A stretch of 64,000 bases of DNA from an uncultured Agrobacterium sp. (GTDB lineage Bacteria > Pseudomonadota > Alphaproteobacteria > Rhizobiales > Rhizobiaceae), in NCBI GenBank assembly GCA_913777615.1, contig CAJYTK010000013.1, positions 186,001 to 250,000 of the forward strand. Direction: 5' to 3'. Every line of letters begins with the position of its first letter. Position 1 is the stretch's first letter. The translations under genes and the position numbers were made by a program. The notes beneath the pieces were generated by a model. It did no database searches. It saw only the letters and a program-made list of their open reading frames with translations, and was not told the DNA's origin. Of the stretch, positions 1,047 through 63,771 are shown piece by piece.

Positions 1047-1077
1047 TTGGCCGGAAGAAACAAGATTAAAGATTGAA

Positions 1078-1104
1078 AGGCCGCAGCGATGCGGTCTTTT
1101 GCTT
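1078..1104 (+). terminator. Rho-independent terminator after pyrG
   Basis: A CCGCA / TGCGG stem with a GCGA tetraloop, extended by GC and GU pairs, is followed by TCTTTTGCTTTT. It lies 30 bases after the pyrG stop and before the ribosome binding site of the next gene. Confidence 0.75.
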
Positions 1105-1125
1105 TTATGAAGAGGACTGGCGCGA

Positions 1126-1764: not shown

Positions 1765-1896
1765 GACGCACGGGCTACACGTATTGGCGGTGATGCTCCC
1801 TAAAAAGCAGTTCCTAATGTTAATATCACGTCAGAACAAAAATTCGTGATCCGAGTTTACTGCTGAATTTGAACGCCAGCGCGCGAGATCATCGGC

Positions 1897-3036: not shown

Positions 3037-6000
3037 TGATGAAGAACGATCAGGAACAGAACCGCACATCCAGTTTCTTCGATTTTTTCATCCTGCATCC
3101 GGTGGCGACCGGGCTGCTCATGACCGGGATCTTTCTCGTCGGCGCGATCTGCTATCCGTTCATGCCGGTTTCAGCTCTTCCCCAAATCGATTTTCCGACC
3201 ATCCAGATCGGTGCCAGTCTTCCCGGTGCGTCGCCGGAGACTATGGCATCCAGTGTTGCGCAACCGATCGAACAGGCGCTCTCACGCGTCAGCGGCATCA
3301 CCGAGATGACGTCAAACAGTTCGCTCGGAACGACGTCGATTACGGTGCAGTTTGATCTGGACAAGAATATCGAGACCGCAGCAAGCGACGTACAGACAGC
3401 GATCAGTGAAGCGGCGGGTGAACTTCCGAAGGATATGACCTCGCTTCCCACGGTGCATAAGGCAAACCCTGCCGATGCGCCGATTATGCAGCTTTCGGCC
3501 ACCTCCGACACGCTGACCCTGCCGCAACTCGACGAATACATTGAACGCAATGTCGCTTCGAAAATCGGGCAAGTCTCAGGAGTCGCCTTCGTCAATATCG
3601 GCGGGAAGCAGAAGCCAGCCATTCGCATCGCTGTCGATCCTGGTCGTCTCGCCCAGGCCGACGTGACGATGGAAGATGTGCGCACCGCTATCGGCAATCT
3701 CAGTCTCAGCGCGCCGAAGGGCAACATCGACGATCCGACCCGCAGCTTTCCGATCTACACAAACGACCAGATTTCCAGCAGTGCTGAGTGGAACGACGCC
3801 GTCATTGCTTATCGTAATGGCGGGCCCGTACGAATCCGCGATATCGGGCAGGCGACAGACGGTGCGGAAGACAGCAAGATGGCACACTGGACCAACGGAG
3901 AGCGAGGGATTGCGCTCGACGTTTTTCGTCAGCCAGGCGCCAATGTGATCGCGGTCGTCAATGCAGTAAAGGAGCAGCTACCCGCACTTCAGGCTTCGTT
4001 GCCGCGCTCGGTAAAGCTGGAGCTCGTCACCGACCGCACAACGACGATCAGAGCATCCGTCACAGATATTCAGTTCACGCTGATGCTGACCATCGGTCTC
4101 GTTGTTGTCGTCATCTTCCTTTTCTTGCGAAATCTGCGTGCGACACTCATCCCGGTCTTGACGCTCCCGATTGCACTTGCCGGGTCGCTCGCACCCATGT
4201 GGCTCTTGGGCTTCAGTCTGGACAATCTGTCGCTCATGGCACTGGTGGTCGCCGTCGGCTTCGTTGTCGACGATGCTATCGTCATGTTGGAGAACATCAC
4301 CCGCCACATTGAGGATGGTGTCGAGCCGAAACTGGCAGCGCTTCAAGGTACGCGGGAGATCGGTTTTACGATCGTTTCCATTAGTCTCTCCCTGATCGCT
4401 GTCCTAATCCCGATCCTGTTGATGGGTGGCATCATCGGGCGCCTGTTTCGGGAATTTGCCGTAACGCTGACGGTCGCAATTGTCATTTCCGCCATTGTCT
4501 CCTTGACGTTGACGCCGATGCTGGCATCGAAGTTCATCCGGCCCATCGAGAAGGATCAGCGTGGCCGTTTTTATCTGGCGGGAGAGGCATTCTTCGATGG
4601 ATTGACGGCGCTCTATATCCGCAGCCTGAAACCCGTCATTCGACATCGATTTTTGACGCTCATCGTTTTCCTGGCCACCATTGCCGCGACCGGTTACCTG
4701 TTCGTCGTGGCACCCAAAGGCTTTTTCCCGGAGCAGGATACGGGCTTCATTGCCGGTCTCTCGCAGGCGTCCCCAGACATATCCTTCACTGAGATGGCGA
4801 AGCTTCAGGAACGCGTCAGCGAGATCATTATGAAAGATCCCGCCGTCTATAGCGTCTTCATGGATATTGGTGGCGGCAACGGAGGCAACGCGCTGAATCA
4901 GGGCCATGTCAACATCACGCTGAAGCCTCTAGAGGAACGCGATGTCAGCGCCAAACAGGTGATCGACCGATTGGGTACGGCACTGAATGCGCAGCAGGGT
5001 ATCAAGCTCTTCATGCAGTCGGCGCAGGACATCAATATCGGCGCGCGTCCTGCTAAAACCCAATATCAGTTCACGCTTCAGGACGCAGATATCGCCGAAC
5101 TGAGCGACTGGTCGGAAAAGATTACCAACAAGCTCTCAAGCCTGCCGGAACTGCGCGACGTCGGAAGCGATCAGCAGGCCGAGGCTCCCAATCTGACGAT
5201 CAAGATCGACCGTGCGGCGGCAACGCTCTACGGCGTGCTTCCTTCCACTATCGATGAGACGCTTTACGACGCCTTTGGTCAGCGCCAGGTCGCCTCCTTC
5301 TCCAGTCAGACCGACACCTTCCGTGTCATTCTTGAGGTGTTGCCGGATCTGCAGCGAGACATCGCCACGCTTGACCGTCTCTCGGTCAGAGCAAGCAACG
5401 GAACGCTTGTCCCGCTTTCGGTCGTGGCGAAGTGGACGACGGATGGCACCTCGCCGGTATCGATCGCGCATCAAGGTCAATCGCCGGCTGTGACCATCTC
5501 GTTCAACCTGGCGCCCAATGTCGCTCTGGGGAACGCCACTGCCGTCATCGAAAATGCCGTGTCCAACATGCATCCTCCGGGGTCGCTGCAGACATCGTTT
5601 TCCGGCAGCGCGAAGGCTTTCAAGGACTCGCTTGGAACCATCCCTCTGCTCATCCTGGCATCGCTCGTCGTGGTCTACATCATTCTCGGCGTTCTCTACG
5701 AAAGCCTTATCCATCCGCTGACGATCCTGTCGACCTTGCCATCGGCCGGACTCGGCGCACTTCTTGCGTTGCAAGTGGCCGGCTTCGACTTTGGGCTCGT
5801 CGCAATGATTGGGGTCATTCTGTTGATAGGTATCGTCAAGAAGAATGGTATCATGCTCGTCGATTTTGCCATCCAGGCAGAGCGGGAGGAGGGATTGTCG
5901 AGCGAGGAGGCAATCGTCAAAGCCGCCCAGATGCGTTTCAGACCGATCCTGATGACTACCATGGCCGCATTGCTTGGTGGAATACCGCTTGCTCTTGGCC

Positions 6001-6164
6001 ACGGTTCTGGCGCCGAACTACGCCAGCCGCTCGGCTATGCCATCGTTGGCGGCTTGATGGTCAGCCAGGTGCTGACGCTATACACCACTCCCGTCATCTA
6101 CCTTCTGCTAGACAAGCTACGGCGCAGGAAGGACAAGCGTGAGGGCAAACTCGCACCCGCTTGA
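3036..6164 (+). CDS. RND multidrug efflux permease (HAE1, MdtB/MdtC-like)
   Basis: Inner-membrane proton/drug antiporter of 1042 residues, the expected size for the hydrophobe/amphiphile efflux family. The ATG at 3036 overlaps the adaptor stop, and the N-terminus is MMKNDQEQNRT. It shows TM1 (VATGLLMTGIFLVGAICYPF), a first large periplasmic loop, the TM4 proton-relay pair Asp-Asp in GFVVDDAIVMLEN, the second loop and the TM10 Lys in IVKKNGIMLVDFA. These residues mark a functional pump. The gene ends a two-gene operon. The export substrate is not predictable. An in-frame extension upstream to 2727 is only an antisense-free overlap with the adaptor gene and is not the start. Confidence 0.95.
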   Translation: MMKNDQEQNRTSSFFDFFILHPVATGLLMTGIFLVGAICYPFMPVSALPQIDFPTIQIGASLPGASPETMASSVAQPIEQALSRVSGITEMTSNSSLGTTSITVQFDLDKNIETAASDVQTAISEAAGELPKDMTSLPTVHKANPADAPIMQLSATSDTLTLPQLDEYIERNVASKIGQVSGVAFVNIGGKQKPAIRIAVDPGRLAQADVTMEDVRTAIGNLSLSAPKGNIDDPTRSFPIYTNDQISSSAEWNDAVIAYRNGGPVRIRDIGQATDGAEDSKMAHWTNGERGIALDVFRQPGANVIAVVNAVKEQLPALQASLPRSVKLELVTDRTTTIRASVTDIQFTLMLTIGLVVVVIFLFLRNLRATLIPVLTLPIALAGSLAPMWLLGFSLDNLSLMALVVAVGFVVDDAIVMLENITRHIEDGVEPKLAALQGTREIGFTIVSISLSLIAVLIPILLMGGIIGRLFREFAVTLTVAIVISAIVSLTLTPMLASKFIRPIEKDQRGRFYLAGEAFFDGLTALYIRSLKPVIRHRFLTLIVFLATIAATGYLFVVAPKGFFPEQDTGFIAGLSQASPDISFTEMAKLQERVSEIIMKDPAVYSVFMDIGGGNGGNALNQGHVNITLKPLEERDVSAKQVIDRLGTALNAQQGIKLFMQSAQDINIGARPAKTQYQFTLQDADIAELSDWSEKITNKLSSLPELRDVGSDQQAEAPNLTIKIDRAAATLYGVLPSTIDETLYDAFGQRQVASFSSQTDTFRVILEVLPDLQRDIATLDRLSVRASNGTLVPLSVVAKWTTDGTSPVSIAHQGQSPAVTISFNLAPNVALGNATAVIENAVSNMHPPGSLQTSFSGSAKAFKDSLGTIPLLILASLVVVYIILGVLYESLIHPLTILSTLPSAGLGALLALQVAGFDFGLVAMIGVILLIGIVKKNGIMLVDFAIQAEREEGLSSEEAIVKAAQMRFRPILMTTMAALLGGIPLALGHGSGAELRQPLGYAIVGGLMVSQVLTLYTTPVIYLLLDKLRRRKDKREGKLAPA

Positions 6165-6519
6165 TGGTAGGGTGGAGGTCGTCGTGAGTATCCTATGGAG
6201 GGGAGGTTATCTCCCGGCGCTATAATGTAAGCAATCAAGCACTGGCCGTAATGAGGTTGGAATTATAGGTTACGTTCTACCCAAGGGTACGTAAGGCGAT
6301 ACTTCGTGGCTGCCACTAACTAGAATTTTCCTAGCGCCCACAGATGACAAGTGAGGCTAGGCGCTGGCTGTGCGCCGGGCTTTGGTAAGGGGCTAAACTT
6401 ACTGATCCGCGAAATTGTAGCGACGGATATGCTGCAACCGTCCTAAAACTTTAAACACCAGAGAGACAATTGAAGCTTTCAAGCTGTCGCTGTCACTCTG
6501 GCGTCAGCGTTACCGCTGG
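6165..6519. other. 355-base intergenic region without recognisable gene
   Basis: This convergent spacer lies between the RND permease and the FliO-like gene. I see no coding frame. A short GGGAG/CTCCC hairpin near 6200 and an imperfect palindrome TTACGT...ACGTAA near 6270-6294 are present; neither is followed by a convincing T tract. A terminator for the RND operon is likely here but not obvious. Confidence 0.4.
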
Positions 6520-7869
6520 TTATCGATCACGCGTGACCGACATCTCACCGAAGATACGAGACATTTCCTTCTGAACATCCCGCTCAGCAGCGGCAGGGTC
6601 TTCCGAGAATTTCGGTTCAGGCTGCGGATCGGGTGTGGTGGTATCCGGGTTGATTGTCGGTTCGACCGTCGGAGACGGCGAAAAATTAGCTGACGCGATG
6701 TTGTTTTTGGCGATTTCCGCCTCAAGAAAGTTTTCGAAATCGCTGGTCAACTGATCGCCGAAAACTGGACCATTATCGCTTGGCGCCAGAGGTTCTTGCT
6801 TTACGACGACCGGTGTCACAGGAGCTGCGGATGCCGCGGTAACAGGTGGTGCAGCCTGATAAGCGGGAAGAACAAGATCACGTTCTGCGTCGGGGAAATC
6901 GACCGCATTTTTTTCTGTGACAGCTGCCTCATTGTGTTCAACTGGCTCGGGCTTTTCGTCCGACAGGCGATCCACTGCCCATTTAGGCTGTGCGAAGTTC
7001 GTTCCATGGTTGGGAGATGCGACTGGGGAGCCGAAGGTGGAGACGCTGGGTGCTGGTGAAACGACAGGTGCTTCCGGGCCGCCGGACAGTGCCGAGGTCG
7101 CTGTCGCAGCTGGCTTGGGGTCTTCACTTTGCTGCATCACCGCAGCAGCGAGAATGGGTGGTGCTGCAGAAGTGGTGGGGGCTACCGGCTCTCGTGCCAG
7201 CGCCTTGGGTGCTGGTGGCGCGACCGGCTGGGGCCGGTGAGGCGACGGTGCTGAGGCTCCCGCGGTCGAAACCGGGTGGATCACTGGCACTGGTTCAGGC
7301 TTTCGGGGGATGGGCTGTGCTGTCACCGGCGGAGGAGGATTGGTTGGTCTTGTCGCTGCCACAGCGGGCGCAGGCGATGGGGAAGGCGCTGGCTTCGCTG
7401 GTGCGGCGCCCGCCGCTGGCTTCTTTCGTTCGTCCGCAGCCGGGGTCTTCACTTCAGATGCCATATTCGCTGCTGCGGGCCGGATATCGTCTTGCGGCGC
7501 CTGCGCAATGCTCCGTTGGCGGTCGGCGTCGCGTGTAATGAGAGCGTCCTCCTGCGGGTCGCGCACATCCTTCATGAACGGTATGGCACCAATGCCGCTT
7601 TCGATCACGATATCGGTCGGACCACCGATCATGACGAGATGCTCGACATTGTCACGTCGCACAAGAACAAGACGTCTGCGCGCATCTACGGCGGTCGCAT
7701 CCAGCACCTGTAGACGCGGCTGACGATTTCTGCCGCCCCGGATAAAGGGTGCAGAGCCGCTTCTGCGTCGGATGAACCATAGAACGATTGCTAGAAGCAG
7801 CAATGCCGTGCCAACGCCAACCACTGCAATGATCAATCGATTGCCATACGCGCCAATGAAGTCTTCCAT
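6520..7869 (-). CDS. FliO-like membrane protein with long Pro/Ala-rich cytoplasmic tail
   Basis: A roughly 449-residue protein with one N-terminal transmembrane segment (about residues 9-31), an RRRSG positive patch and a FliO/MopB-like beta domain: LQVLDATAVDARRRLVLVRRD and EHLVMIGGPTDIVIESGIG. FliO helps assemble the flagellar type III export gate, and the GGPxDIVIE signature is typical of that family. The remaining 300 residues are low-complexity Pro/Ala/Val and probably disordered. I place the start at MEDFIGAYGNR because a GAAGGGA box lies about eleven bases upstream; an alternative ATG lies eight codons earlier. It diverges from cckA. A true flagellar role is uncertain because no other flagellar gene is near. 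Confidence 0.7.
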   Translation of the reverse strand: MEDFIGAYGNRLIIAVVGVGTALLLLAIVLWFIRRRSGSAPFIRGGRNRQPRLQVLDATAVDARRRLVLVRRDNVEHLVMIGGPTDIVIESGIGAIPFMKDVRDPQEDALITRDADRQRSIAQAPQDDIRPAAANMASEVKTPAADERKKPAAGAAPAKPAPSPSPAPAVAATRPTNPPPPVTAQPIPRKPEPVPVIHPVSTAGASAPSPHRPQPVAPPAPKALAREPVAPTTSAAPPILAAAVMQQSEDPKPAATATSALSGGPEAPVVSPAPSVSTFGSPVASPNHGTNFAQPKWAVDRLSDEKPEPVEHNEAAVTEKNAVDFPDAERDLVLPAYQAAPPVTAASAAPVTPVVVKQEPLAPSDNGPVFGDQLTSDFENFLEAEIAKNNIASANFSPSPTVEPTINPDTTTPDPQPEPKFSEDPAAAERDVQKEMSRIFGEMSVTRDR

Positions 7870-8217
7870 AATGGTGCTGGTCCCTTCAGCCATTTTCTGC
7901 AGCGGAAATGTACCCGCATTACATTTGTTCACATATCGTGACGGGAAAAGACGATTTTTTTTCGCCGCCTACAAGAATTTATCCTGTTCTTCCACGAATT
8001 TGCTGCATGTTTGACGAAATCAGTTCAGTGAAGACGCTCGGCTGTGCGCGCCCATCGGTACGCGATGCCTATTGTTGTGCATGGGCGATGCTTATCGATT
8101 GACGGAGCTTTTTGATATTTATGCAAATTGCTACAAGCAATGTAGAAGCGATTCCGTTCGATGTGACTTTTTCCGGCATGTCGGGAAGGCCAGCAGAACT
8201 GCAAGGGTAAAACCTCG

Positions 8218-10824
8218 ATGACCAAGGTGCGTCAAACCACTGATAATGACTTTCCCTTGGTGGACAGGCGCGGGCGATCGGCCACTGTGCTTCGCATTCT
8301 GCTTCTGGCACTTGTTCTAGTGGCTGCGGCTATTGCCTTCGTTTACTTCAAGGACTCTCTTGAGAACGAGATCGTGCTTGGCATTCTTGGTGTTCTCGCC
8401 ATGCTCGGCATCTTTTTTCTGGTGTCGTCCGCGATCGGCTTCATCGAGGTTATGCCCCAGTCGCAATCCGATGGAATGGCGCGGCGCTTTCTTTCATCTC
8501 ATCCCGAGGGCACGCTGATCACCGATACCAAGGGGCGGCTGGTCTACGCCAACGCAACGTATTGCCAGATGACCGGCGCGTCGCGAGCAACCGAGATACA
8601 GAGCCTTGAGCAGTTGCTTTCGCGGGATATGGAATCGACGGAAGCTCTCTATCGCCTGATCAATGGTTTGCGCGAAGGACGCGACGGATATGAAGAGTTC
8701 CGTCTGCTTAAGCCTCTCAGCCAGTCAGGGGTTACCCCGCCAGGTCCCCGCTGGTTCCGGCTTAAGGCGCGTCTGCTCAAAGATGCGAGCGGTCAGGACC
8801 TGCATGTTTTCCAGATTGCCGACATCACCGCCGAGCGCGAAGACCAGGAGCGCTTCTTCCGCGAGTTGCAGAACGCCATCGATTATCTCGACCATGCGCC
8901 AGCCGGCTTCTTTTCTGCGGGCCGAAAAGGGGAAATTGTCTATCTCAACGCCACGCTCTCCGAATGGCTCGGGATCGATCTGGCGCAGTTCTCCCCAGGC
9001 TCGTTGAATGTATCCGATATCGTGGCAGGCGAGGGGATGGCTCTCATTGAATCGGTGCAGCCGCAAGTGGGTAGCAAGCGCACCGAAATGCTCGATCTCG
9101 ATATGCGCCGTGTCAATGGGCAAAGCATGCCGGCACGGCTCGTTCATCAGGTGACCGCCGCGCGTGACGGTGCACCGGGTGAAAGCCGGACCCTGGTTCT
9201 GATGCGACCCAAGGGACAAGATAGCGCAGAATCGTCGTCGGCAATGCGCTTCACCCGATTTTTCAACAACACGCCGATGGCGATTGCGTCCATCGATGGC
9301 GAAGGACGTATCCTGCGAACCAATGCGCCGTTCCTGAAGCTGTTCTCCGGCGTCGTTGGTCGTGATGACATAGACAATGCCGTTCCACTGGAAACGGTTC
9401 TGCACGACAATGAGAAGGCCAAGCTTGCGCAGGCGATGACGGCTGCGAAGGATCGGCAGGGGGATATTCCGCCATTCGATTCCCGCCATCCAAAGGACGA
9501 AACCCGTCATTTCCGCTTTTACGTCAACGCGGTGATCGATCAGGACGACGAGGCTCCTGAAGAGGTCGCGATCGTCTATGCTATTGAGGTGACCGAGCAG
9601 AAGGCTCTTGAAACCCAGATGGCGCAGACGCAAAAGATGAATGCGGTTGGCACGCTTGCTGGCGGCATCGCCCATGATTTCAACAACGTCCTGACCGCCA
9701 TTCTGTTGTCGTCCGACCATCTGCTTCTTCAGGCTCGGCCAGCGGATGCAAGTTTTGCGGATCTGATGGAAATCAAGCGCAATGCCAATCGTGCGGCGGT
9801 GCTTGTACGACAGTTGCTGGCCTTTTCACGCAAGCAGACGATGCGCCCTGCTGTTCTCAACCTGACCGACGTCATCGGTGACCTGCGCATGCTGGTCGAC
9901 CGGTTGATCTCCGGTACGAACGTTAAGCTCGAAGTGGATTACGGGCGGGATCTCTGGCCGGTCAAGACAGACTTGTCGCAGTTCGAGCAGGTCATGATCA
10001 ATCTTTGCGTCAATGCGCGTGATGCCATGCCTGATGGCGGCAAAATCAAAGTGACGACACGCAATTTGCTGGCCTCAGACGTTGCAGCTTTCGGCAAGAC
10101 CGAACTTCCGGCTGAAGACATGGTCATGGTCGAAGTTGCCGATACCGGAACTGGTATCCCACCCGAGATCATGGACAAGATTTTCGAGCCCTTCTTTACC
10201 ACGAAGGAAGTGGGCAAGGGCACCGGCCTTGGCCTCTCGATGGTTTACGGTATCGTCAAGCAATCCGGCGGTTACATCTATCCGGAGTCCGAGGTCGGTA
10301 AGGGCACCGCTTTCCGTATTCTGCTACCGCGCCATATCGTCGAGCCGGTGCAGGCCTTACCGGCATCCGACGGTGCGGAAACTCAGCGAACCGTCGAGGC
10401 CGTCGTCGCAAAGCCGGAAGCCAAGGACGAACCGCTCGACCTTACTGGCAAGTCGGCTGTGGTGCTGCTTGTGGAGGACGAGGAGGCTGTGCGCCGCGGC
10501 GGCAAACGAATGCTGGAGACGCGCGGTTATACGGTCTATGAGGCCGGCTCCGGTACAGAGGCGCTGGACGTGATGGAGGAGTTGGAGGGCAAGGTCGATA
10601 TCGTCGTTTCCGACGTCGTCATGCCTGAAATGGACGGTCCTTCGTTACTGCGAGAGCTGCGCAAATCCTACCCTGACCTCAAATTCATCTTCGTGTCCGG
10701 TTACGCCGAAGATGCCTTTGCCAAGAACCTTCCAGCCGATGCAAAGTTCGGCTTCCTGCCAAAGCCTTTCTCGCTCAAGCAGCTTGCTGTCTCCGTCCGT
10801 GAAATGCTGGATAGCGACAGTTAA
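8218..10824 (+). CDS. cckA: Cell-cycle hybrid histidine kinase CckA
   Basis: CckA starts the phosphorelay through ChpT to the master regulator CtrA in Alphaproteobacteria. The 868-residue protein has two N-terminal transmembrane helices (about 23-45 and 52-75), several PAS-like modules (about 90-460), a HisKA dimerisation helix with phosphoacceptor His486 in GGIAHDFNN, an HATPase domain ([33 protein letters not shown]) and a C-terminal receiver with phosphoacceptor Asp799 in [11 protein letters not shown]. The fused receiver and the membrane anchor are the CckA hallmarks. It is monocistronic, with about 280 bases of divergent promoter region upstream. Identification is very strong. Confidence 0.95.
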
Positions 10825-42092: not shown

Positions 42093-42442
42093 ATGACATC
42101 GATATTCGCAGGCTTCGCTACTTTCTCACGATTGCAGAGGAGAAGCACTTCACGCGCGCGGCAGACAAGATCGGTATTCGGCAGCCGCCCCTCAGCATCC
42201 AGATCCGCCAGCTTGAGGACACAGTCGGTGCGCGGCTCTTCACCCGACATGCAAAAGGCGTTGAACTGACGGCTGCCGGAATTGTTTTTCAGGAGACGGC
42301 ACGAGACATCGTTGCACGCTTCGAGGACGCTGTCACTCAGGTCAGACGGTCTACCGACCAATTGCCGGAAAATCGCCTCGTGCGCCTATCGCGATCGCAA
42401 CCCGGAGCGAGGATCATGCCAAACTTGTCACATCCTTCGTGA
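42083..42442 (+). pseudogene. LysR-type regulator, truncated after the DNA-binding region
   Basis: A 119-residue frame that keeps the LysR winged helix-turn-helix (RRLRYFLTIAEEKHFTRAAD, PPLSIQIRQLEDTVGARLF, LTAAGIVFQE) and the linker helix, then runs into unrelated sequence after VTQVRRSTDQLPENRL. The 200-residue ligand-binding domain is absent in every frame downstream. It is therefore a remnant; it might still bind DNA as a dimer. It diverges from poxB over a palindrome and was probably its regulator. Confidence 0.75.
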
Positions 42443-42598
42443 TGAGTGCCATTCAAACCGCGCGCCGATAAATCAACAGCTTCACCTTAGGTGTGGGGAC
42501 AGGCTAACGCTTTCACGAGGCTTGCAAAGGTTGTTTAGCAAAGGCGGTTCAACTATTGATGCCGGGCTTGTGATTAAAAAAAACACGCGAAGGCCATC

Positions 42599-43702
42599 AT
42601 GACTCTTCCCGACGTAAAGCTTCCCGCACGCCCGTTGAGACTGAAGCGCGGCGTTCTGTCCGTTCCTTTCGCTTACTACTTCTCGCCGCCGATCCTGCTT
42701 GCAATCGCGATCTTCATGTTTGTCGCGGAAGGGCCAGGGATTATACGGGATTACAAAATCAGCCAGAACCCGGTCGAAATCGAAAACGGCGATCTCAATG
42801 GCAGTTGCAAAACCCGCAAAGGTATCTTCACCACCTGCACGGCCAAGCTCGCTTATGACTATGAAGGCAAGCATTATATCAGCGACGTGGAGGTGATGTT
42901 CATCGACATTCACTCAGGTGATTATGAGGCTGGCCTTGTCATTTCCGGCTCCGACCCAGCCCTTGCGACGATCTCGCTCGGTCTCGATATGTTGTGGAAC
43001 AGAATCATCACGCTCGCGGTCCTCACCGTACTTCTCGGCTTCGGCGGTCTCGCGCTACTGATGGCACTCGTTCGATATTTCCGCGCAAGAGCCAAGCTCG
43101 GTGAAGCTCAGCCGCTCATACTGTTGCCGGTTGCCCTGACCAACGCCACCAAAAAGCGCGGCGGCGTTCTCCTCACTTATTCCGACACGATCCGGGAGGA
43201 TAAAACGAAGCGTCAGTCATTCTCGCTTATGCGCAAGGATGAGGTCCCGCTGATTATCGCTCAGTCTGAAAAACACGATATCGCGCTTGCCACCTGGCAA
43301 AAAGACAGCCCTCTGCCCGTACTTCTGGACGACCGCCTGGAGCGGATCGAGATTACAGAAGCAGAAAGGGCGCAGGCGTTGTCTGCCTTCACGTCCGACG
43401 AAGTGTCGCCGGGTGCCCCACAGACCGACCTAGCACAGGCAAACAAAACCGTTGGCGCCTCTGCGCTGCAGGGCATTAAGGCATTCGGAATCATCATCCT
43501 GCTGATGATTGTTGGAATTGGAGGGTACTGGTTGTGGTATGTCACCGCCGCTCCATCACAGTTCACATCCCCTGCCATGGACATCAATAACCTAATGCCA
43601 GGTCCGATCAACAAATGGGGCTGTGCTCAGTTGCAGAAAAGGTTCGGAGAGCAAAATGCGCCATTCGGTTGCGCGTCGAGTGATTACACAAGCTGGAAGT
43701 AG
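42599..43702 (+). CDS. Hypothetical membrane protein, 367 residues
   Basis: No family is recognised. The protein has three hydrophobic segments: YYFSPPILLAIAIFMFVAEG (about 26-45), IITLAVLTVLLGFGGLALLM (about 138-157) and IKAFGIIILLMIVGIGGYWL (about 293-312). Between the first two is an extracytoplasmic loop with four Cys (SCKTRKGIFTTCTA). The C-terminal tail is periplasmic and has a Cys pair (KWGCAQLQKRF, FGCASSD). The spaced Cys suggest disulfides. The ATG follows AAGG. It stands alone between the LysR remnant and a hairpin. Confidence 0.75.
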   Translation: MTLPDVKLPARPLRLKRGVLSVPFAYYFSPPILLAIAIFMFVAEGPGIIRDYKISQNPVEIENGDLNGSCKTRKGIFTTCTAKLAYDYEGKHYISDVEVMFIDIHSGDYEAGLVISGSDPALATISLGLDMLWNRIITLAVLTVLLGFGGLALLMALVRYFRARAKLGEAQPLILLPVALTNATKKRGGVLLTYSDTIREDKTKRQSFSLMRKDEVPLIIAQSEKHDIALATWQKDSPLPVLLDDRLERIEITEAERAQALSAFTSDEVSPGAPQTDLAQANKTVGASALQGIKAFGIIILLMIVGIGGYWLWYVTAAPSQFTSPAMDINNLMPGPINKWGCAQLQKRFGEQNAPFGCASSDYTSWK

Positions 43703-43753
43703 TCGGCGCGTCTGCTAGTAATGCCGAACCCGGTTTTAGTTGCAGACTTCAAG

Positions 43754-43787
43754 CAAATGCAGGTCGCATCGCGGCGACCTGCATTTG
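43754..43787 (+). terminator. Strong hairpin after the hypothetical membrane protein gene
   Basis: A perfect 14-pair stem CAAATGCAGGTCGC / GCGACCTGCATTTG with a six-base loop, 50 bases after the stop. There is little T after it, but on both strands it could stop convergent transcription. Confidence 0.65.
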
Positions 43788-43844
43788 TGTAGCGGAGCTG
43801 TCACCCAAAGCCTGGCTGTCTTAGGCTGCGAATGTATTTGCAAT

Positions 43845-44084
43845 CTATCGGACGATCACGCCGTACTGTTGAACGCCACCGTAGACAGGAGGCCTATGGC
43901 GGTGGTGGTAACGGCGGTCTCGCCAATCCCGCCGGTCATAGTTGCGGTAATAACGATCTCTCTCATAGGTCCGGTAGTAGACGCCCGTCGAATAGTACCC
44001 GCCACTCCGGTAGCCACGATCGTCAACGCATCCACTCAAGATACCAACGGAAATCAGGCAAATTGCTGCACTCAAAAGCTTCAT
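43845..44084 (-). CDS. Small Tyr/Arg-rich lipoprotein
   Basis: A 79-residue lipoprotein. The signal KLLSAAICLISVGILSGC ends in the lipobox LSGC; the mature part is unusually rich in Tyr, Arg and Asp (YYRTYERDRYYRNYDRRDW). No domain is recognised. The start is set by GGAGAGAG before the ATG; the frame is open 17 codons upstream without support. An EcfG-type promoter with the exact consensus lies directly upstream, so it is probably induced under general stress. Confidence 0.75.
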   Translation of the reverse strand: MKLLSAAICLISVGILSGCVDDRGYRSGGYYSTGVYYRTYERDRYYRNYDRRDWRDRRYHHRHRPPVYGGVQQYGVIVR

Positions 44085-44108
44085 GATCTCTCTCCAATGA
44101 CGCATCTT

Positions 44109-44133
44109 AACGTCTGCTCTTGCGCAAGGTTCC
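44109..44133 (-). promoter_or_regulatory. EcfG-type general stress promoter of the lipoprotein gene
   Basis: Read on the minus strand: GGAAC, 16 bases, CGTT, a full match to the sigma-EcfG consensus of Alphaproteobacteria. The -10 is 24 bases before the start codon. Confidence 0.7.
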
Positions 44134-44183
44134 AACCGGCGTGAAGCAAGCCACTGGACAAGATGAAGAAGCGATGATGGGTG

Positions 44184-44363
44184 TTACATCTCTGAGCCAT
44201 TCCGCGGGCGACGAAGCGCCGAGTCGACGGGCTGAACACGCTCAAGAGGGACAGCCGCGAAGTCGAAGCGACCCAATTCCGGCGACCGATTTTCTATTTC
44301 TTGTAGCCGCTCACGTGAAAAGAAATCAAAGACACCGAAAGTCTGGCCTCTCCGGTAAACCAT
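44184..44363 (-). CDS. Possible small protein, 59 residues
   Basis: An open frame MVYRRGQTFGVFDFFSRERL ... with balanced composition, at the junction of chromosome and prophage. No clear ribosome binding site and no family recognised. It may instead be the end of a gene cut by the prophage. Confidence 0.3.
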   Translation of the reverse strand: MVYRRGQTFGVFDFFSRERLQEIENRSPELGRFDFAAVPLERVQPVDSALRRPRNGSEM

Positions 44364-44468
44364 GAAAACTCAATGATTTTTAGGAGACGTGGCGGATGGG
44401 GTGTCTGTCACAATGCTGTGGAAAAGGCCTTGTTTTTTGGGGTCATTTAGGCCTTCTCTTTGTTCCGA

Positions 44469-44489
44469 TACCCGCAATCGTACCCGCAA
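44469..44489. repeat. Short direct repeats near the left edge of the prophage
   Basis: TACCCGCAA occurs twice, starting at 44469 and 44481. They lie in the 140-base non-coding strip between the chromosome side and the AlpA gene, together with an AAGGCCT / AGGCCTT hairpin at 44424-44455. This is where an attachment site should be, but the other end is outside the window, so no core can be proven. Confidence 0.35.
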
Positions 44490-44503
44490 ATTTGTAGCGA
44501 ATT

Positions 44504-44731
44504 TCAGCCTGTTTTTTTCAGAGTGGGTTCGCTCTCTCGGGCGTCCTGCCATACCTTGAAGTCGGAGACGCGCCACCTGGTGCAGTTCTCGCCCAGCTTC
44601 ACAGGTCGAGGGAATTTACCTTCGTCCATCCAGCGATAAAGGGTAGACGTCGCAACCTTCATGATGGACGTGATCTCCCTAAGCGTGAGATAGCTGTCGA
44701 GCGATATGAAATTTGTGGGATTGTCGGACAT
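44504..44731 (-). CDS. AlpA-type helix-turn-helix regulator (excisionase-like)
   Basis: A 75-residue MerR-like/AlpA DNA-binding protein: YLTLREITSIMKVATSTLYR (winged helix-turn-helix) then WMDEGKFPRPVKLGENCTRW and VSDFKVWQDAR. AlpA proteins control prophage integrase or excision genes. The start MSDNPTNF has GGAG six bases upstream; an open frame to 44821 adds 30 unsupported residues. Adjacent sequence on its downstream side is probably the attachment region. No integrase gene is visible in this window, so it should lie beyond the right edge. Confidence 0.8.
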   Translation of the reverse strand: MSDNPTNFISLDSYLTLREITSIMKVATSTLYRWMDEGKFPRPVKLGENCTRWRVSDFKVWQDARESEPTLKKTG

Positions 44732-44906
44732 TGGCAACTCCAAACAGGATGAGGGAAGCCGGCGCATGGCCGGTTTCTGTCCGCTTGGGAAAGTATGCGT
44801 AGATATAGGAAAGAATGTCAATATTTTTTAGCCTGCGTTCTCCCCGCTTGCAACTATATTCAACCACCCGTAAAAAGCGAAATCGCATTATAGGCAGGGG
44901 GCTAAA

Positions 44907-47357
44907 TTGATCGACGATATTATGGAAGAAGCGATAAACGACATCGCTGGTGGAGCCGCAATTTGCCTAGTTGGTGCGGGATTCTCGTGGGGCGCAAAAG
45001 ACGCTACCGGACTGTCTGTGCCAAGCGTGGAAGTCCTGTGCGAGGAGATATGCAGACTAGCTAAGTTAAACTACGCTGATGGTTATTCACTGTCTGATCT
45101 GGCCGAGTTTTGTAACGACGATCCAAATCTGAAAGAAAAACTGCGCACTCTGTTGATCCGGCGCCTTACCCTTTGCGTCCCGAGTGGCGCGCATAAAGCA
45201 ATTATGCAGATGCCATGGCGTGCAGTGTTTACAACTAATTTTGATGATGTGGCCGAGCGATCGATTCTCCCCGGTCCGTTACAGGTTGTGACGCCATTAT
45301 CTGACGCCAGAGAACTAAGGGCCGGGACCCGTCCGCTATACTATCTACACGGGAGAGCGCTCGATTTTCACACTATTAATCGCGACCCCGGTCTAGTTCT
45401 TTCTGAGACGAACTATCTTGAGCTTCGAGAGAAAAATCGGCTCGTCTACGATGCTCTTGTGAACGAAACTCACGCGGCAAGCCGTGTGTTTTTTATTGGC
45501 TATTCTCTTCGGGACGCAGAGATAGCAACAAGGCTCTTTAGCATTGAAGGGCTTAAAGAAAAATCTGTTGTCATTTGCGGTCCAGATGAGAAGCCTGTCA
45601 CTCTCAACCGGCTTAAGAAGTTTGGCGCAACATATCCTATCGGCGTAGATTCTTTTGCTTCAACATTGCCTGAACCCTCAAGCATACCATCCAAGTCGGA
45701 CGATATAGGCCTTCTGGGATACGTGGGAGTGAAGAAGAAAGAGGGAGCAAAGCAAGACCTTACCAATGAGGACGTTGAAGCTCTCCTCATAGCAGGTAAG
45801 TTTGATTATTCTGCTTATGCATCGCAGCAGAGAGCGCTCGACGACGAAACATTGTACTGCGTTCCTCGAGAGCAACATCTCAAAAAACTTTTCCAGTCTG
45901 GTGCAAGCCGTTTTATCGTCACATCGGACCTCGGTAACGGAAAGTCGGTGTTTCTCGAGCAATTGACCTTCGAAGCGCATAGGTTAGGGTATGAGGTTTT
46001 CTCTGTTCACACTCAACTACCCGAGGCGCTGACGGAACTAGATTTGCTCCTGGCTAGTAACAAAAAGCGCATTTACCTGGTTGACGGGTTCGTCCGTTAC
46101 AGAAAGGCCGTCAAGCATATTGGGTCACGATTGCCTCCTAACAGTATCCTCGTTGTGGCGACCAACGAAATCGGGGACGATAACTTCCACTACAGCGTAT
46201 CGGAGGAAATGGGTGGTGCCGCGCGAGAGATAGACCTTAACGTTTTAGATAATTCTGAAATTTTGGCTTGGGACCGGCTGCTGGAGCGGTGGGGGTTTTG
46301 GCAAGATCGGATCGAGGATGAGCAGAAAGAACGATTGTCCTTTCTTAGAGATGATTGTTCATCCGAAAACAGATCGATTATGCTCGCGCTGTTTAAGAAA
46401 TCCAAGCTAAGTGCCACTATCGAGCGAACGGTTAGCTTCTTTGTCCAGCAATATCCTGAGCATCAGAGTTCTTTTATTGCTGTCCTGATCAATGCCCTCT
46501 GCCAAAATCATGTCGAGTGGTCGAGAATCGTCGGTTGGCTTAATATCGATACGACTGAGTTGAAACGAGCAATCCTGTCCTCTCCTATTGGAGAGATTAT
46601 GAAAGGACGCAGAGAGTGGCATAAGTTCACCTCGACCGAGCTTGCATCCTACATTCTCAACAATTTCAGTTTTGATTTTGATGAGATAATCAAGACATAC
46701 ACAAAAATTGTTCGTGAGACTGCTTACAGTAGCGACGATTACAGAGGTGGCTTCGATTCGAGAGAGAATTTGAAAGAGCTAATGCGTTACAGATTTTTGA
46801 CGCGTCTGTTCACTGACAAAGAGATCGGACTAAGCTCAATCAATGCCGTGTATCAGCAACTCTCCAAAGTTCCTCGCATCAGGAACAATGATCAGTTCTG
46901 GCTACAATTCGCTATGGCTCGAATGGAAGTGGGTGATCTCGACGGTGCTGAGGGTTACCTAAGTACAGCGCTTGGTCTTGCTGGGAAGAAAGGTGAGGAA
47001 TATTCCAAACGCCAGATATTGGATCAGCAAGCACGTCTGATATTTAGAAAAGCATCACAACCAAAGGCTAGGATTGTGAAATCCGACATTTTGCAGGCAA
47101 TTCAGAATTTGAATGAGGTGCTTGCTGATAAAAAATCACTAGCAATTTATCCTTTGCGATCATCGAAGTATTTATTGAATTTTTTGGAGGAAAAGGCGGA
47201 TAAACTGGACGCCTCTATGGTCGAAGCCCTATTGCAGGTTTGGGAGAGTATGGACAAGAGAATTTCTGGTGAGAGGATTGAGAAATCGAAGAAAGGTGAA
47301 ACCGCTGTAATACGAAAGCAATTGCGCGAAATAAAGTTGATCCTCAGCAGCCTGTAG
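44907..47357 (+). CDS. SIR2-like NADase plus P-loop NTPase protein (putative anti-phage defence)
   Basis: An 816-residue protein with an N-terminal SIR2-like domain: NAD-binding GAGFS (residues 23-27), TTNFDD (109-114), the catalytic-type His148 in YYLHGR, and FFIGYSLRD (195-203). A second domain has a P-loop SDLGNGKS (340-347) and a Walker-B-like strand RIYLVDGF (388-395). The C-terminal 400 residues are helical and look like a repeat sensor domain, as in STAND NTPases. SIR2-STAND proteins (e.g. Avs5 class) kill infected cells by NAD depletion. TTG start with AGGGGG five bases upstream; TTGCAA-17-TAAAAA promoter. The gene is clearly AT-richer than neighbours, which indicates transfer. Confidence 0.82.
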   Translation: MIDDIMEEAINDIAGGAAICLVGAGFSWGAKDATGLSVPSVEVLCEEICRLAKLNYADGYSLSDLAEFCNDDPNLKEKLRTLLIRRLTLCVPSGAHKAIMQMPWRAVFTTNFDDVAERSILPGPLQVVTPLSDARELRAGTRPLYYLHGRALDFHTINRDPGLVLSETNYLELREKNRLVYDALVNETHAASRVFFIGYSLRDAEIATRLFSIEGLKEKSVVICGPDEKPVTLNRLKKFGATYPIGVDSFASTLPEPSSIPSKSDDIGLLGYVGVKKKEGAKQDLTNEDVEALLIAGKFDYSAYASQQRALDDETLYCVPREQHLKKLFQSGASRFIVTSDLGNGKSVFLEQLTFEAHRLGYEVFSVHTQLPEALTELDLLLASNKKRIYLVDGFVRYRKAVKHIGSRLPPNSILVVATNEIGDDNFHYSVSEEMGGAAREIDLNVLDNSEILAWDRLLERWGFWQDRIEDEQKERLSFLRDDCSSENRSIMLALFKKSKLSATIERTVSFFVQQYPEHQSSFIAVLINALCQNHVEWSRIVGWLNIDTTELKRAILSSPIGEIMKGRREWHKFTSTELASYILNNFSFDFDEIIKTYTKIVRETAYSSDDYRGGFDSRENLKELMRYRFLTRLFTDKEIGLSSINAVYQQLSKVPRIRNNDQFWLQFAMARMEVGDLDGAEGYLSTALGLAGKKGEEYSKRQILDQQARLIFRKASQPKARIVKSDILQAIQNLNEVLADKKSLAIYPLRSSKYLLNFLEEKADKLDASMVEALLQVWESMDKRISGERIEKSKKGETAVIRKQLREIKLILSSL

Positions 47358-47360
47358 TTA

Positions 47361-47788
47361 TCACACCTCCAATATTGGCGGAGTTTTTGCTTTCGGGCAT
47401 CCGCTTTCCTGCAAGCGATCCACGTCAGCTTTCTTAAAGAACTGATATTGATCGAGGTGCAGCTTTGCGGAATGCCCATCGCTGAACATCTCGTCGCAGT
47501 GAAAGCAGCGCCATTCCTTCGCTGCAGGTACCGGGGTCTGGACGCCACGGCAAGGGCGTGGCGTCCGCCGTCGGCCTGAAGGCCATCTATGCTATTCTTG
47601 CAGTCCGATGCAGTCGGGACATCGACGTGTGGGAGGCGCGCGAACTTGCGCATACGTTCGCACCAGATCGAATAGTCCTGTGCGGACATAAATCGTCGAT
47701 TATTCCACTCGCATTCTTGTGCGAGCGCTTCGACTTGGCCGTCTGTCTCAATGGGCCATGTGCGGGCCAAGGATGTTTGTGTCGTCAT
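47361..47788 (-). pseudogene. Phage C2H2-like zinc-finger protein, apparent frameshift
   Basis: The gene starts MTTQTSLARTWPIETDGQ with AGGAG eight bases upstream. Its frame runs on without a stop into the antisense of the SIR2 gene. The neighbouring frame reads KEWRCFHCDEMFSDGHSAKLH, a Cys-x2-Cys ... His zinc-finger pattern common in phage proteins, and ends at 47361, but has no start codon. One extra C in the C-run at 47533-47536 would join them into about 142 residues. So either a one-base loss or a sequence error. Last gene of the left operon. Confidence 0.6.
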
Positions 47789-48078
47789 TGAGCGTTCTCC
47801 TGATCCAGCTCTTTGAACTTGATCCGTTCCAGTGCTCCTTCGGCCGCATGAAGGTACTTCGCGGGGTCTGGCTGTCTGCCGCTTGCCATGGCTCCGCTGC
47901 CCGCCACAATCCACCCGACTTCCAGCAGTATGCCCGCCACCAGCGACGTAGCTTCATCGGGTTTCTGCCCGGCGTTGATGAACTCGTCGGATTGGTCAAA
48001 GGCCCATTGCTTGACCGTGTCGCGTAGCGTGGGGAAGATCCGACGAGAAGCGTCGGTGACCGAAAATTCATTGCTCAT
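47785..48078 (-). CDS. Phage hypothetical protein, 97 residues
   Basis: MSNEFSVTDASRRIFPTLRD onward; an all-helical cytoplasmic protein with a Gly/Ala-rich middle helix (LVAGILLEVGWIVAGSGAMA). AAGGGAC precedes the ATG. Start and stop overlap the neighbouring genes by one and four bases. No family is recognised; operon membership is the main evidence. Confidence 0.65.
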   Translation of the reverse strand: MSNEFSVTDASRRIFPTLRDTVKQWAFDQSDEFINAGQKPDEATSLVAGILLEVGWIVAGSGAMASGRQPDPAKYLHAAEGALERIKFKELDQENAQ

Positions 48079-48725
48079 CACTTGTCCCTTTCGCGATAGA
48101 GCTTCAGCAGCTGCTCGCCGGCCTCGGCATCGATGCGATCGAGCTGGCGTAGCGCCCAATTCAGGCCCTCGGCGAATCCGCTGCGGCTGCCTTTGTGAAA
48201 CTCGTCGATGTTGCGCTGGGCAGCCTTTCGCTCGCGATCGTCAATGATGGTCTTGACGGTAACGGTGAACGCACCGCGGGAATGCGGTTCCGCATTGTGG
48301 TAGGAGCTGTGGCCGGGTTCGCCTGAGACGGGGACAACTCGCCACCACTCATGTCGCACCACATCGACGTTGCCGAGACTGCGCGCTTCGGCGTTCACAT
48401 AGCGTTGGTCGTAATAGTGGTCAGCGCCGGTATGCTGATTGACCGCCGACGCGAAGGCGTACCGCTCGAGATGACCTTTGGCCCAATACCCCATCAAGCC
48501 GCCGCCGTCGCAGCCCGTCTCGCGAAGGTCGATGATTTCGATCGAGGGGCGCGGAGCGCCAACGAACGATTTCAGGTGCTCTGCGGCGACGCGCACCGCG
48601 GCTTCGTCGGCGTCGCTCAGATCGGCCTTGCCAGGCAGGCTTCCATCAGTCTCGATCGTGAGGACCTGTTTACCATTAATTCGGACCTCGACGGCCCAAT
48701 GAGGCTTATCAACTGTCACGGTCAT
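48078..48725 (-). CDS. Phage hypothetical protein, 215 residues
   Basis: A charged cytoplasmic protein. The first third (WAVEVRINGKQVLTIETDG) is beta-rich, the middle holds RYAFASAVNQHTGADHYYDQ and the end is helical (GFAEGLNWALRQLDRIDAEA). No recognised domain. It overlaps the upstream gene by four bases and the downstream gene by one, in the left prophage operon. Confidence 0.65.
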   Translation of the reverse strand: MTVTVDKPHWAVEVRINGKQVLTIETDGSLPGKADLSDADEAAVRVAAEHLKSFVGAPRPSIEIIDLRETGCDGGGLMGYWAKGHLERYAFASAVNQHTGADHYYDQRYVNAEARSLGNVDVVRHEWWRVVPVSGEPGHSSYHNAEPHSRGAFTVTVKTIIDDRERKAAQRNIDEFHKGSRSGFAEGLNWALRQLDRIDAEAGEQLLKLYRERDK

Positions 48726-61171: not shown

Positions 61172-61780
61172 ATGCCAGCCCATTGGACCGATATGACATC
61201 CGCCGAGCGATGCGTTGCCATCGTCGAGATTTACCCCTCAACCAAGGGGACTGGCAGGACGATCGCTGAAGCTCTCACTGCCCGGTTCAACGTGCAGATT
61301 ACGCGCAGCTCTGTGATCTCGATGTACGCCCGTCATGCCGAAAAGCTGAAGACGGTTCCCCTGACAGGGCCATCAAAGGCAGCAGCTGGCAGCGTTCCAG
61401 TCAAAGCCAAACCCGCTGAAAAGAAGATACGACGGCCTTCGGCGCTGATGGTCGCCAGCGGCATGCAGTTCATCACGCCAAAGCCCAAGCCGGCGCCCAA
61501 GCGTGTTGATCAATCTGTGCCTGTTCGCCGTGCGGTCCAGTCAGAGGCTCCTGAGTTCGCTTCGTTGCTGGTGACGGCGCCGGTGCCGAAGAACCGAGAG
61601 CTTTACCAGCTCGAGCGGTGCGACTGCCGTTGGCCGGTCAGCGGCGACAGGGAGAATACGCTCTTCTGCGCGCATGCGACGCGGCTCGAGTCTCCTTACT
61701 GCGATTACCACGCGAATTTGTCCGTCGGCCTTGGTTCAAGGGCAGAGCGATCAGCTGTGCCAGCGAGGTTGATGCGATGA
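61172..61780 (+). CDS. GcrA-like cell-cycle regulator, phage copy
   Basis: A 202-residue protein. The N-terminal 65 residues form a helix-turn-helix-type region (TIAEALTARFNVQITRSSVI), the middle is a Pro/Lys-rich linker, and the end CDCRWPVSGDRENTLFCAHA with SPYCDYHANL matches the Cys/His signature of GcrA. Host GcrA works with sigma-70 at CcrM-methylated promoters. The stop overlaps the start of the methyltransferase gene (ATGA), which hints at a shared function. Confidence 0.78.
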   Translation: MPAHWTDMTSAERCVAIVEIYPSTKGTGRTIAEALTARFNVQITRSSVISMYARHAEKLKTVPLTGPSKAAAGSVPVKAKPAEKKIRRPSALMVASGMQFITPKPKPAPKRVDQSVPVRRAVQSEAPEFASLLVTAPVPKNRELYQLERCDCRWPVSGDRENTLFCAHATRLESPYCDYHANLSVGLGSRAERSAVPARLMR

Positions 61781-63771
61781 ATGCACCTCTGCGCTCAAAT
61801 TTCTTCGACCTCGACAATCGTATGACCGTCGTGTTGTTCGCCGGCATGGGTGGTGGCTGTGACGGACTGGAGCAAGCCGGTTTTCACGTTCACCTCGCCA
61901 TCAACCATGACAAGATCGCCGTGGCGGTCCACGAAAAGCGGCACCCACACACGCGGCACCTTCGTTGCGATGTCTTCGAGGTGTGCCCGAAGGAAGCGAC
62001 GAAGGGCAGGGGTGTTCGCATTCTGCACGCCTCACCCGACTGCACGCACTTCAGCGTTGCCAAAGGCGGCAAGCCGGTCTCGAAGCGTCGGCGGTCTCTG
62101 GCTTGGGTTGTCTGCCGTTGGGCCGGTACCGTTCGCCCCGAAATCATCACGCTCGAGAACGTGAAGGAAATTCAGTCGTGGGGCCCGCTGATCGCAAAGC
62201 GCTGCGCAACGACAGGACGCGTGATGAAGCTTGACGGCACCGTAGCGGCGCGTGGCGAACGCGTCCCGGTTCAGCAGCAATGGCTTATTCCTGATCCACG
62301 CCACAAGGGGCGGATATGGAAGGCCTGGCTGAAACACATGGCTGGCCTGCGCTATAACTTCGAAGGGCGAGAGCTGGTGTGCGCCGACTTCGGCATTCAC
62401 ACCATCCGCACACGGTTTTTTGGAGTAGCGAAAGCCGACGGCTCACCGATCGCATGGCCGGAGCGGACCCATGCACCTCGCAAGTTGGCGAAGAAGCTTG
62501 GCCTAAAGCCGTGGCGCGGTGTCCATGAAGTAATCGATTGGACGCTGCCGGTAAAATCCATCTTCGGGCGCAAGAAGGATCTTGCAGAAGCGACCTTGCG
62601 GCGGACCGCCCGCGGCGTCATGCGTTACGTCGTCAACGCTGCAAAGCCGTTCATCGTGCCGATCACTCATTCCGGCAATAACGACCGGGTCCACTCGATC
62701 GACGAACCGCTGCGCACCATCACGACCGCGCACCGCGGTGAGTTGAGCGTGATGGTGCCATCCGTTACCAAGTTCCGCACAGGATCGGTGGGTAGCGACA
62801 TTCTCGATCCTCTGCCTACGTTCACCGCCAACAGCTATCACAAGCGGCCGGGCGGCGCGGTGCCCTTGGGTATCGTGTCAGCCACGATGATCCAGTCGGG
62901 CTATGGCGAAAGGGAAGGGCAAAATCCCCGCGTTGTTGACATCAATGACCCTGTGCCGACGCAGGTGTCGGGAGGTGCCAAGCACGCTGTCATCGCGGCG
63001 AGCCTACAGCGCCAGTTCGGTCAAAGCACCGGTGCCGATGTAAAAGAGCCGCTGCCGGTATTCACGCCGGACGGGCAAGGTAAAACCGCGCTCGTCGCTG
63101 CCGCTATCCAAGCATACTACGGTGGAGAGCAAGGCCTCCGACGAGGCGGGGATGTTGAGGAGCCGCTTCAAACCTTTGTCACGGAACCTCGCCACGCCGT
63201 GGTTTCGGCCTTCCTCGCTCAGCATAACGACGGCCCGCGCGCCGGCGCCAATGTGCGGTCGGCGGAAGAGCCTGCATCGACGATCACGACCAGCGGTTCG
63301 CAACAGGGCGTCGTCGCTGCTTCCATGCTGGCGCTCCGCGGCACGAACAAGGATGGCCGTGACATCGAAGAGCCAAGCGCAACCATCACCGCGGGCGGGA
63401 ACCATGCCGGGTTAATCCTCGGATTCCTGCAGGCCTACTACTCTGGCAGCGGCGGGTATGAGCAAACGCTTGGCGACCCTATCGGCGCTTTGACGCAAAA
63501 GGCGCGGCATGGCCTCGTCGTGGTCAAAGTCAAAGGCACTGAATACGTGCTCACCGACATCGCAATGCGCATGCTCGAGCCAGAAGAAGGCGCGGCGTCT
63601 CACGGTTTCCCGCCGGGATCACTGCCAGACACAATCATGCTGGACGGAATCGAGAAGCGCCTCACCAAGACGCAGAAGTACGAGCTCGTCGGCAACAGCG
63701 TGCCGCCGAAGATGATCAGACTTTTAGCAGAGCACAATGCGCGCCACGCTTTTGCGGAGGCAGCGGAGTGA
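61777..63771 (+). CDS. Phage DNA cytosine-C5 methyltransferase with repeat-rich insert
   Basis: A 664-residue enzyme. Motif I is LFAGMGGGCDGLEQAG (20-35), the catalytic Cys89 is in SPDCTHFS, motif VI is LENVKE (126-131) and motif X is GNSVPPKMIRLL (639-650). Between about residues 305 and 585, where the target-recognition region lies, a short unit of the form (D/E)P-x2-T-x-T ... H-x-V occurs eight times, every 33-45 residues. Start ATG 61777 overlaps the GcrA-like stop. No endonuclease partner. Confidence 0.88.
   Translation: MNAPLRSNFFDLDNRMTVVLFAGMGGGCDGLEQAGFHVHLAINHDKIAVAVHEKRHPHTRHLRCDVFEVCPKEATKGRGVRILHASPDCTHFSVAKGGKPVSKRRRSLAWVVCRWAGTVRPEIITLENVKEIQSWGPLIAKRCATTGRVMKLDGTVAARGERVPVQQQWLIPDPRHKGRIWKAWLKHMAGLRYNFEGRELVCADFGIHTIRTRFFGVAKADGSPIAWPERTHAPRKLAKKLGLKPWRGVHEVIDWTLPVKSIFGRKKDLAEATLRRTARGVMRYVVNAAKPFIVPITHSGNNDRVHSIDEPLRTITTAHRGELSVMVPSVTKFRTGSVGSDILDPLPTFTANSYHKRPGGAVPLGIVSATMIQSGYGEREGQNPRVVDINDPVPTQVSGGAKHAVIAASLQRQFGQSTGADVKEPLPVFTPDGQGKTALVAAAIQAYYGGEQGLRRGGDVEEPLQTFVTEPRHAVVSAFLAQHNDGPRAGANVRSAEEPASTITTSGSQQGVVAASMLALRGTNKDGRDIEEPSATITAGGNHAGLILGFLQAYYSGSGGYEQTLGDPIGALTQKARHGLVVVKVKGTEYVLTDIAMRMLEPEEGAASHGFPPGSLPDTIMLDGIEKRLTKTQKYELVGNSVPPKMIRLLAEHNARHAFAEAAE

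Follow-up and report, generated by a model that had tools for sequence, protein, structure and literature searches.

Avs5 (AVAST type 5), taken here in the broad sense of SIR2-STAND proteins, is the closest described system to the locus reported below. In these proteins, sensing of a phage protein leads to hydrolysis of nicotinamide adenine dinucleotide (NAD+), which depends on the P-loop, on the catalytic residues of SIR2 and on the repeats at the C-terminus; the repeat domain holds a conserved Tyr, a conserved Trp and an invariant Gln, and four clades are distinguished, with an identity of 18-21% between clades (PMC12931631, from which the broad usage is also taken). According to PMC12700824, homodimers are the building blocks of Avs5 filaments, whose formation is apparently required for activity. 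Here we describe a gene at positions 44907-47357 (+ strand) of a 64,000-nucleotide stretch from an uncultured Agrobacterium sp., hereafter the window (contig CAJYTK010000013.1, positions 186,001 to 250,000). We regard its product, with a probability of roughly 0.85, as an anti-phage protein of the Avs5 (SIR2-STAND) kind that is carried on a prophage and encoded by a single gene. This reading is built on the gene and its domain order, the conservation of catalytic residues and of the P-loop, homology to EfAvs5 over the full length, the match of the C-terminal fold, the position in a prophage and the lack of a recurrent partner gene. The gene thus represents a new, divergent branch within a known kind of defence system and not a new kind.

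The gene forms a single open frame of 816 codons, in agreement with the original prediction, and has a TTG start. An ATG at 44922, five codons downstream, offers an alternative; the TTG is favoured, since the start chosen in the closest relative (L107, from Kordiimonas) falls at nearly the same position. Three parts follow one another along the + strand. The first is a predicted SIR2 NADase domain (44907-45686, residues 1-260, approximate boundary) with the motifs GAGFS (44973-44987, residues 23-27), TTNFD (45231-45245, residues 109-113) and HG (45348-45353, residues 148-149). The second comprises a linker and a STAND-type P-loop nucleoside triphosphatase (NTPase; 45687-46346, residues 261-480), in which the P-loop GNGKS lies at 45933-45947 (residues 343-347). 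All these motifs had been anticipated, and the numbering of Asn111, His148 and Lys346 proved correct. The third part is a helical-repeat C-terminal domain, the putative sensor (46347-47354, residues 481-816), with Tyr649...Trp665-x-Gln667 (46851-46907) as the counterpart of the residues conserved in the Avs5 repeat domain. A helical C-terminus of 400 residues had been expected; the models confirm that it is helical, with a length of about 336 residues.

Conservation was counted over a family alignment of 48 rows, the window protein and its relatives. Gly23, Gly25, Asn111, Asp113, Gly149, Asp203, Gly345 and Lys346 are identical in 48/48 rows, which argues that the SIR2-STAND motifs are not there by chance. 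Position 148 is H in 16/48 and N in 32/48 rows, and the C-terminal mark is kept as Tyr in 42, Trp in 47 and Gln in all 48. Pfam SIR2_2 (PF13289) matches residues 106-218 at 45.5 bits (cut-off 24.5). Accordingly, the N-terminal SIR2 features of Avs5 (PF13289, GxGxS, TTNxD), a central STAND NTPase with its Walker A motif, which the full-length alignment to EfAvs5 spans, and the C-terminal helical repeats with conserved Tyr and Trp and invariant Gln are all present.

The most informative comparison is with EfAvs5 of Escherichia fergusonii (PDB 9jap, 'Helical structure of EfAvs5(SIR2-STAND)', presumably the structure from Wang et al. 2025), which has in common with the window protein the domain order, the catalytic Asn/Asp, the P-loop GNGKS and the Tyr-Trp-x-Gln mark. 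The match of the window protein to a solved full-length relative (124.7 bits, E 3e-35) is far from chance. When the modelled C-terminal half was used in a fold search, the Avs5 repeat fold was found: 323 of 337 residues fit EfAvs5 at 3.9 Å, and AVAST5 of PDB 9nc9, a protein of the same architecture, was the second Avs5 match, with the C-terminal half as well as with the whole model. The original prediction, which had suggested that the sensor may be new, was right about the kind of protein and its setting but wrong in expecting a sensor fold that is likely to be new; the ligand recognised by the clade of the window protein is still worth testing. Compared by published description, PaAvs5-1 to -3 likewise combine SIR2, nSTAND and repeats, and show the same conserved Tyr, Trp and invariant Gln and the same mixture of HG and NG as the family of the window protein (PMC12931631). 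There are also differences. The window protein has HG where L038, an EfAvs5-like plasmid protein that matches EfAvs5 end to end as a near-copy, has NG; EfAvs5 falls in a separate clade of the tree, and in this comparison the last ~100 residues are without a match to the profile of the window protein's clade.

Several results weigh against placing the protein in Avs5. Identity to EfAvs5 is only about 20% (161/799 aligned residues, measured on L038). The NCBIfam Avs5 model (NF041814) reaches 33.1 bits within the SIR2 domain only, far below its cut-off of 1000, and the PADLOC Avs5 model (PDLC02170) gives no match to the window protein at E 1 or better. For the window protein alone, nSTAND_NTPase5 (21.8 bits, cut-off 34) and nSTAND3 (16.9 bits, cut-off 27.2) stay below threshold. 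PDB 9nc9, which we assume to represent one type together with NF041814 and PDLC02170, is absent from the sequence matches up to E 1 (a set that may not include it). Finally, the whole-model root-mean-square deviation (rmsd) is 24.9 Å to 9jap and 31.4 Å to 9nc9, with tight fits at the domain level only, so that domain placement differs or is unsure.

On the other side, the identity to L038 is about equal to that between the published Avs5 clades (PMC12931631), and L038 is itself unmatched by the PADLOC Avs5 model at E 0.001. L036, a close relative of EfAvs5 (960 bits to 9jap), and three more of the five other relatives tested match no NCBIfam family at E 0.01, and the fifth (L034) matches NCBIfam Avs5 at 15 bits. 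As the near-copy L038 and the relative L036 are missed too, the failure on the window protein reflects a limit of these narrow models. Within the family, at E 0.01, NCBIfam Avs5 is matched by 16/48 rows (best 1.7e-16) and PADLOC Avs5 by 11/48 (best 2e-9); nSTAND_NTPase5 is matched by 46/48 members at E 0.01 or better.

Other SIR2 proteins share part of this picture. In the case of ThsA, DSR2 and KomC, the SIR2 fold and motifs are common to the window protein (about 3 Å over roughly 240 residues), and the rest of the protein is different. In Thoeris, ThsA is a SIR2-SLOG effector and ThsB a separate sensor (PMC11204291). A Thoeris-like effector, with a SIR2 domain activated by a signalling nucleotide from another protein and no direct sensing, would agree with ThsA being the best PADLOC model for the SIR2 domain (E 7e-10; 39/48 family members) and with the fit of this domain to ThsA at 3.0 Å over 245 residues. 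However, the ThsA match is confined to residues 4-210, and the window protein carries, in place of SLOG, a P-loop NTPase and helical repeats of the Avs5 type: at E 1, Pfam finds in it SIR2_2 and two STAND NTPases only, and no SLOG family. The 89 loci of relatives described below offer no recurrent partner gene either, and we consider this explanation very unlikely. Equally improbable is a protein of the DSR2 type, with a SIR2 domain, then an extended helical region for the binding of tail-tube or similar proteins, and no switching driven by ATP. The structural fits to DSR2 extend either over the SIR2 domain, at about 3 Å, or over 330-359 residues, where the rmsd is 14-21 Å; the P-loop Lys is kept in 48/48 rows, and NCBIfam Dsr2 (a model of 1215 positions) gives 24.8 bits over residues 90-119 against a cut-off of 1400, for a protein of 816 residues.

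Single-gene action was addressed by a survey of the neighbourhoods of homologues. An alignment-based scan (tblastn, E 0.001) found 179 stretches encoding relatives in species genomes; the best 80 of these were retained as 79 loci, and 11 more came from viral contigs. Where the gene is clear (89 loci), the protein mostly has about 790-860 residues. The neighbours in 89 of the 90 loci, considered within 7 kb where the contig allows (several contigs are short), include no recurrent partner gene. Clusters of neighbours in at least 4 loci comprised only ABC proteins (10 loci), response regulators (6) and LysR regulators (5), names that were read by eye from sequence. In genomic terms, this points to a gene acting alone, as in Avs5. 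Among the nearest neighbours of the relatives (113 of 160 listed open reading frames), 3 integrases and scattered defence models were matched, and mad8 was matched by two neighbours, the sole such case among the first 25 families; both observations are without a control set and support no claim of enrichment in defence islands.

Regarding distribution, the rows of the tree span Pseudomonadota, Bacteroidota, Bacillota, Chloroflexota, Verrucomicrobiota and others. At E 0.001, matches were obtained in 7/101 related genomes and 22/398 genomes of the phylum, the window's own being included in both and many covering the SIR2 domain only. Relatives occur in 20/72,556 plasmid records, and none was found in 50,697 phage records at E 1e-5 (tblastn). 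Peptide patterns of the window protein confirmed no relative in genome contigs (16 stretches) and none in viral contigs; the relatives that they missed were recovered by the family alignment. NF041814 exceeds its cut-off in 0/299 genomes; at E 0.001, 3 genomes give a match, one of them being the genome of the window, which is uninformative on absence. PADLOC Avs5 was weakly matched in 1/6 genomes and in 0/298 genomes of the genus of G491, where the controls were silent too, so that this count is likewise uninformative on absence. Some copies are disrupted: one relative (L010/L030, genome G482) is split near residue 198 by an insertion carrying a gene that we read as transposase-like, and a near-identical intact copy (L009) is present in G484; a 44% identical relative near a contig start (L002, G050:C31) has an internal stop and is thus probably inactive. 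The genome of the window holds a second SIR2 gene (L031, G000:C22:62932-63588), about 2 kb from an integrase (C22:60725-61117), whose best PADLOC match is ThsA (54.9 bits, SIR2 part only).

The tree, computed for 65 proteins, places the window protein with relatives from Kordiimonas, Devosia, Brevundimonas, Sphingomonas and a Rhodobacteraceae bacterium. The branch of this clade is long (1.31) with a value of 100 in the Shimodaira-Hasegawa-like approximate likelihood ratio test, from a quick search without bootstrap in which several rows elsewhere are long as well. Among the six members, pairwise identity averages 44% in the C-terminal half, 41% in the SIR2 domain and 36% in the NTPase; one closer pair, which reaches 66% in the C-terminal half, raises these means. 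The identity of the window protein to the other 42 rows is 18% in the C-terminal half, 25% in the SIR2 domain and 20.5% in the NTPase, figures that alignment errors would depress. Residues invariant in this clade only number 28 in the C-terminal half, vs 11 in the SIR2 domain and 8 in the NTPase. The C-terminal half is therefore the best conserved part inside the clade and the most divergent outside it, as would be expected of a clade with one shared ligand. The five other members are lone genes with 43-49% G+C in flanks of 55-68%; their neighbours resemble ordinary chromosomal genes by eye, one being confirmed as UvrB, and inspection by eye revealed no phage genes within 6 kb. The Rhodobacteraceae relative is preceded on the same strand by a gene (L055:8654-9946) that presumably encodes a nicotinate phosphoribosyltransferase of NAD salvage, a single case and perhaps chance. 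A literature search found no publication on this clade, which does not prove that there is none. Tentatively, and at somewhat less than even odds, the window protein and its five alphaproteobacterial relatives may form an undescribed Avs5 clade with its own sensor, directed at one conserved phage ligand other than JADA and common to phages of several alphaproteobacterial orders, the gene having been acquired by a temperate phage as a shield against competitors.

The gene had been placed at a prophage edge, and this is borne out by the left attachment repeat of 15 bases (44389-44403), identical to the 3' end of tRNA-Ser(TGA) outside the window (G000:C13:290548-290562). Taken alone this repeat has an E of 0.011 in the comparison, yet it lies exactly on the tRNA-Ser end. 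From repeat to tRNA the prophage measures about 60.2 kb, with an integrase just inside its right end; matches to terminase, portal, tail fibre and endolysin identify the element as a phage. The portal is 80% identical to that of Agrobacterium phage Atu_ph08 and 71% to that of Sinorhizobium phage PBC5, and comparison of two parts (1-9500 and 28000-58966) shows the prophage and Atu_ph08 to be largely collinear. The match to a genome of the same genus (G009) ends at 43710, 678 bases left of the repeat, and 43711-44388 has no match in the corresponding stretch, so that the left junction is not seen base by base. In G009, the left flank begins about 105 bases from the same tRNA-Ser, and between this tRNA and the right flank lies a different island of ~6 kb (L155:10962-17023), whose other end carries a damaged tRNA-like copy; the site is thus used repeatedly. 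The portal gene is found in 3/247 genomes at E 1e-100, the own one included; the contig of the 86% copy in G020 ends before the slot of the SIR2 gene.

Within the prophage, an AlpA-type gene (44504-44821, - strand; phrog_66 E 1.7e-11, phrog_2790 E 9.6e-7, 'excisionase and transcriptional regulator'), whose product is 50% identical to a protein of Atu_ph08, is divergent from the SIR2-STAND gene as foreseen. To the left lie the attachment site and then host sequence. The operon convergent with the gene is a leftward-transcribed phage operon located to its right (47785 onwards), with a probable early-operon end at 47785-48159 (- strand) that is weakly Atu_ph08-like (34% identity, E 8e-7). The AlpA-attachment-integrase module is inverted relative to Atu_ph08 (42199-44105), with flanking operons in the same orientation. 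A large DNA methyltransferase gene (61618-63771, phrog_116) has a counterpart in Atu_ph08 at 76% identity.

The AT-richness of the gene had been correctly noted: it has 46.8% G+C vs 56.5% for the whole window, and in a 100-base scan of the window the five lowest-G+C segments of gene size all overlap it. A promoter of its own, which had also been claimed, could not be confirmed, as no sigma-70-like site was found on the + strand upstream of the gene (scan of 44300-48300), other promoter types being possible.

This position, adjoining the attachment site and the AlpA gene, between that module and the leftward operon end where Atu_ph08 has small genes without counterpart here, could also suit a gene that serves the prophage itself, for instance in stability of the element or in exclusion of plasmids or related phages only, and the relatives on plasmids would agree with such a role. 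However, the five clade relatives are the lone, low-G+C genes without recognised phage neighbours described above, and Avs5 relatives of the same architecture stop lytic phages (PMC12931631). We therefore judge a role confined to the prophage to be unlikely.

The window protein is most likely an Avs5-type abortive-infection protein, judging by analogy with published Avs5 work, from which each functional step of the proposed mechanism is drawn. In the resting cell, the C-terminal helical-repeat domain would be folded over the NTPase, holding the protein off. An incoming phage component would bind this domain, the P-loop NTPase would then bind adenosine triphosphate (ATP) and switch, and the proteins would assemble, as filaments in EfAvs5. 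The SIR2 domains would hydrolyse NAD+ and the infection would be halted, sparing the resident prophage and other cells.

Altogether, the SIR2-STAND kind is widespread and extends beyond the current Avs5 models, which miss even L038 (in the case of PADLOC) although the structure of EfAvs5 has been solved. With this locus, a defence gene can also be positioned in an Atu_ph08-like temperate phage, between its attachment module and its early operon. The window protein marks a clade with an unusually well conserved sensor, and the occurrence of such a sensor in several alphaproteobacterial orders points to a single conserved target on the phage side, which makes the question of the ligand testable.
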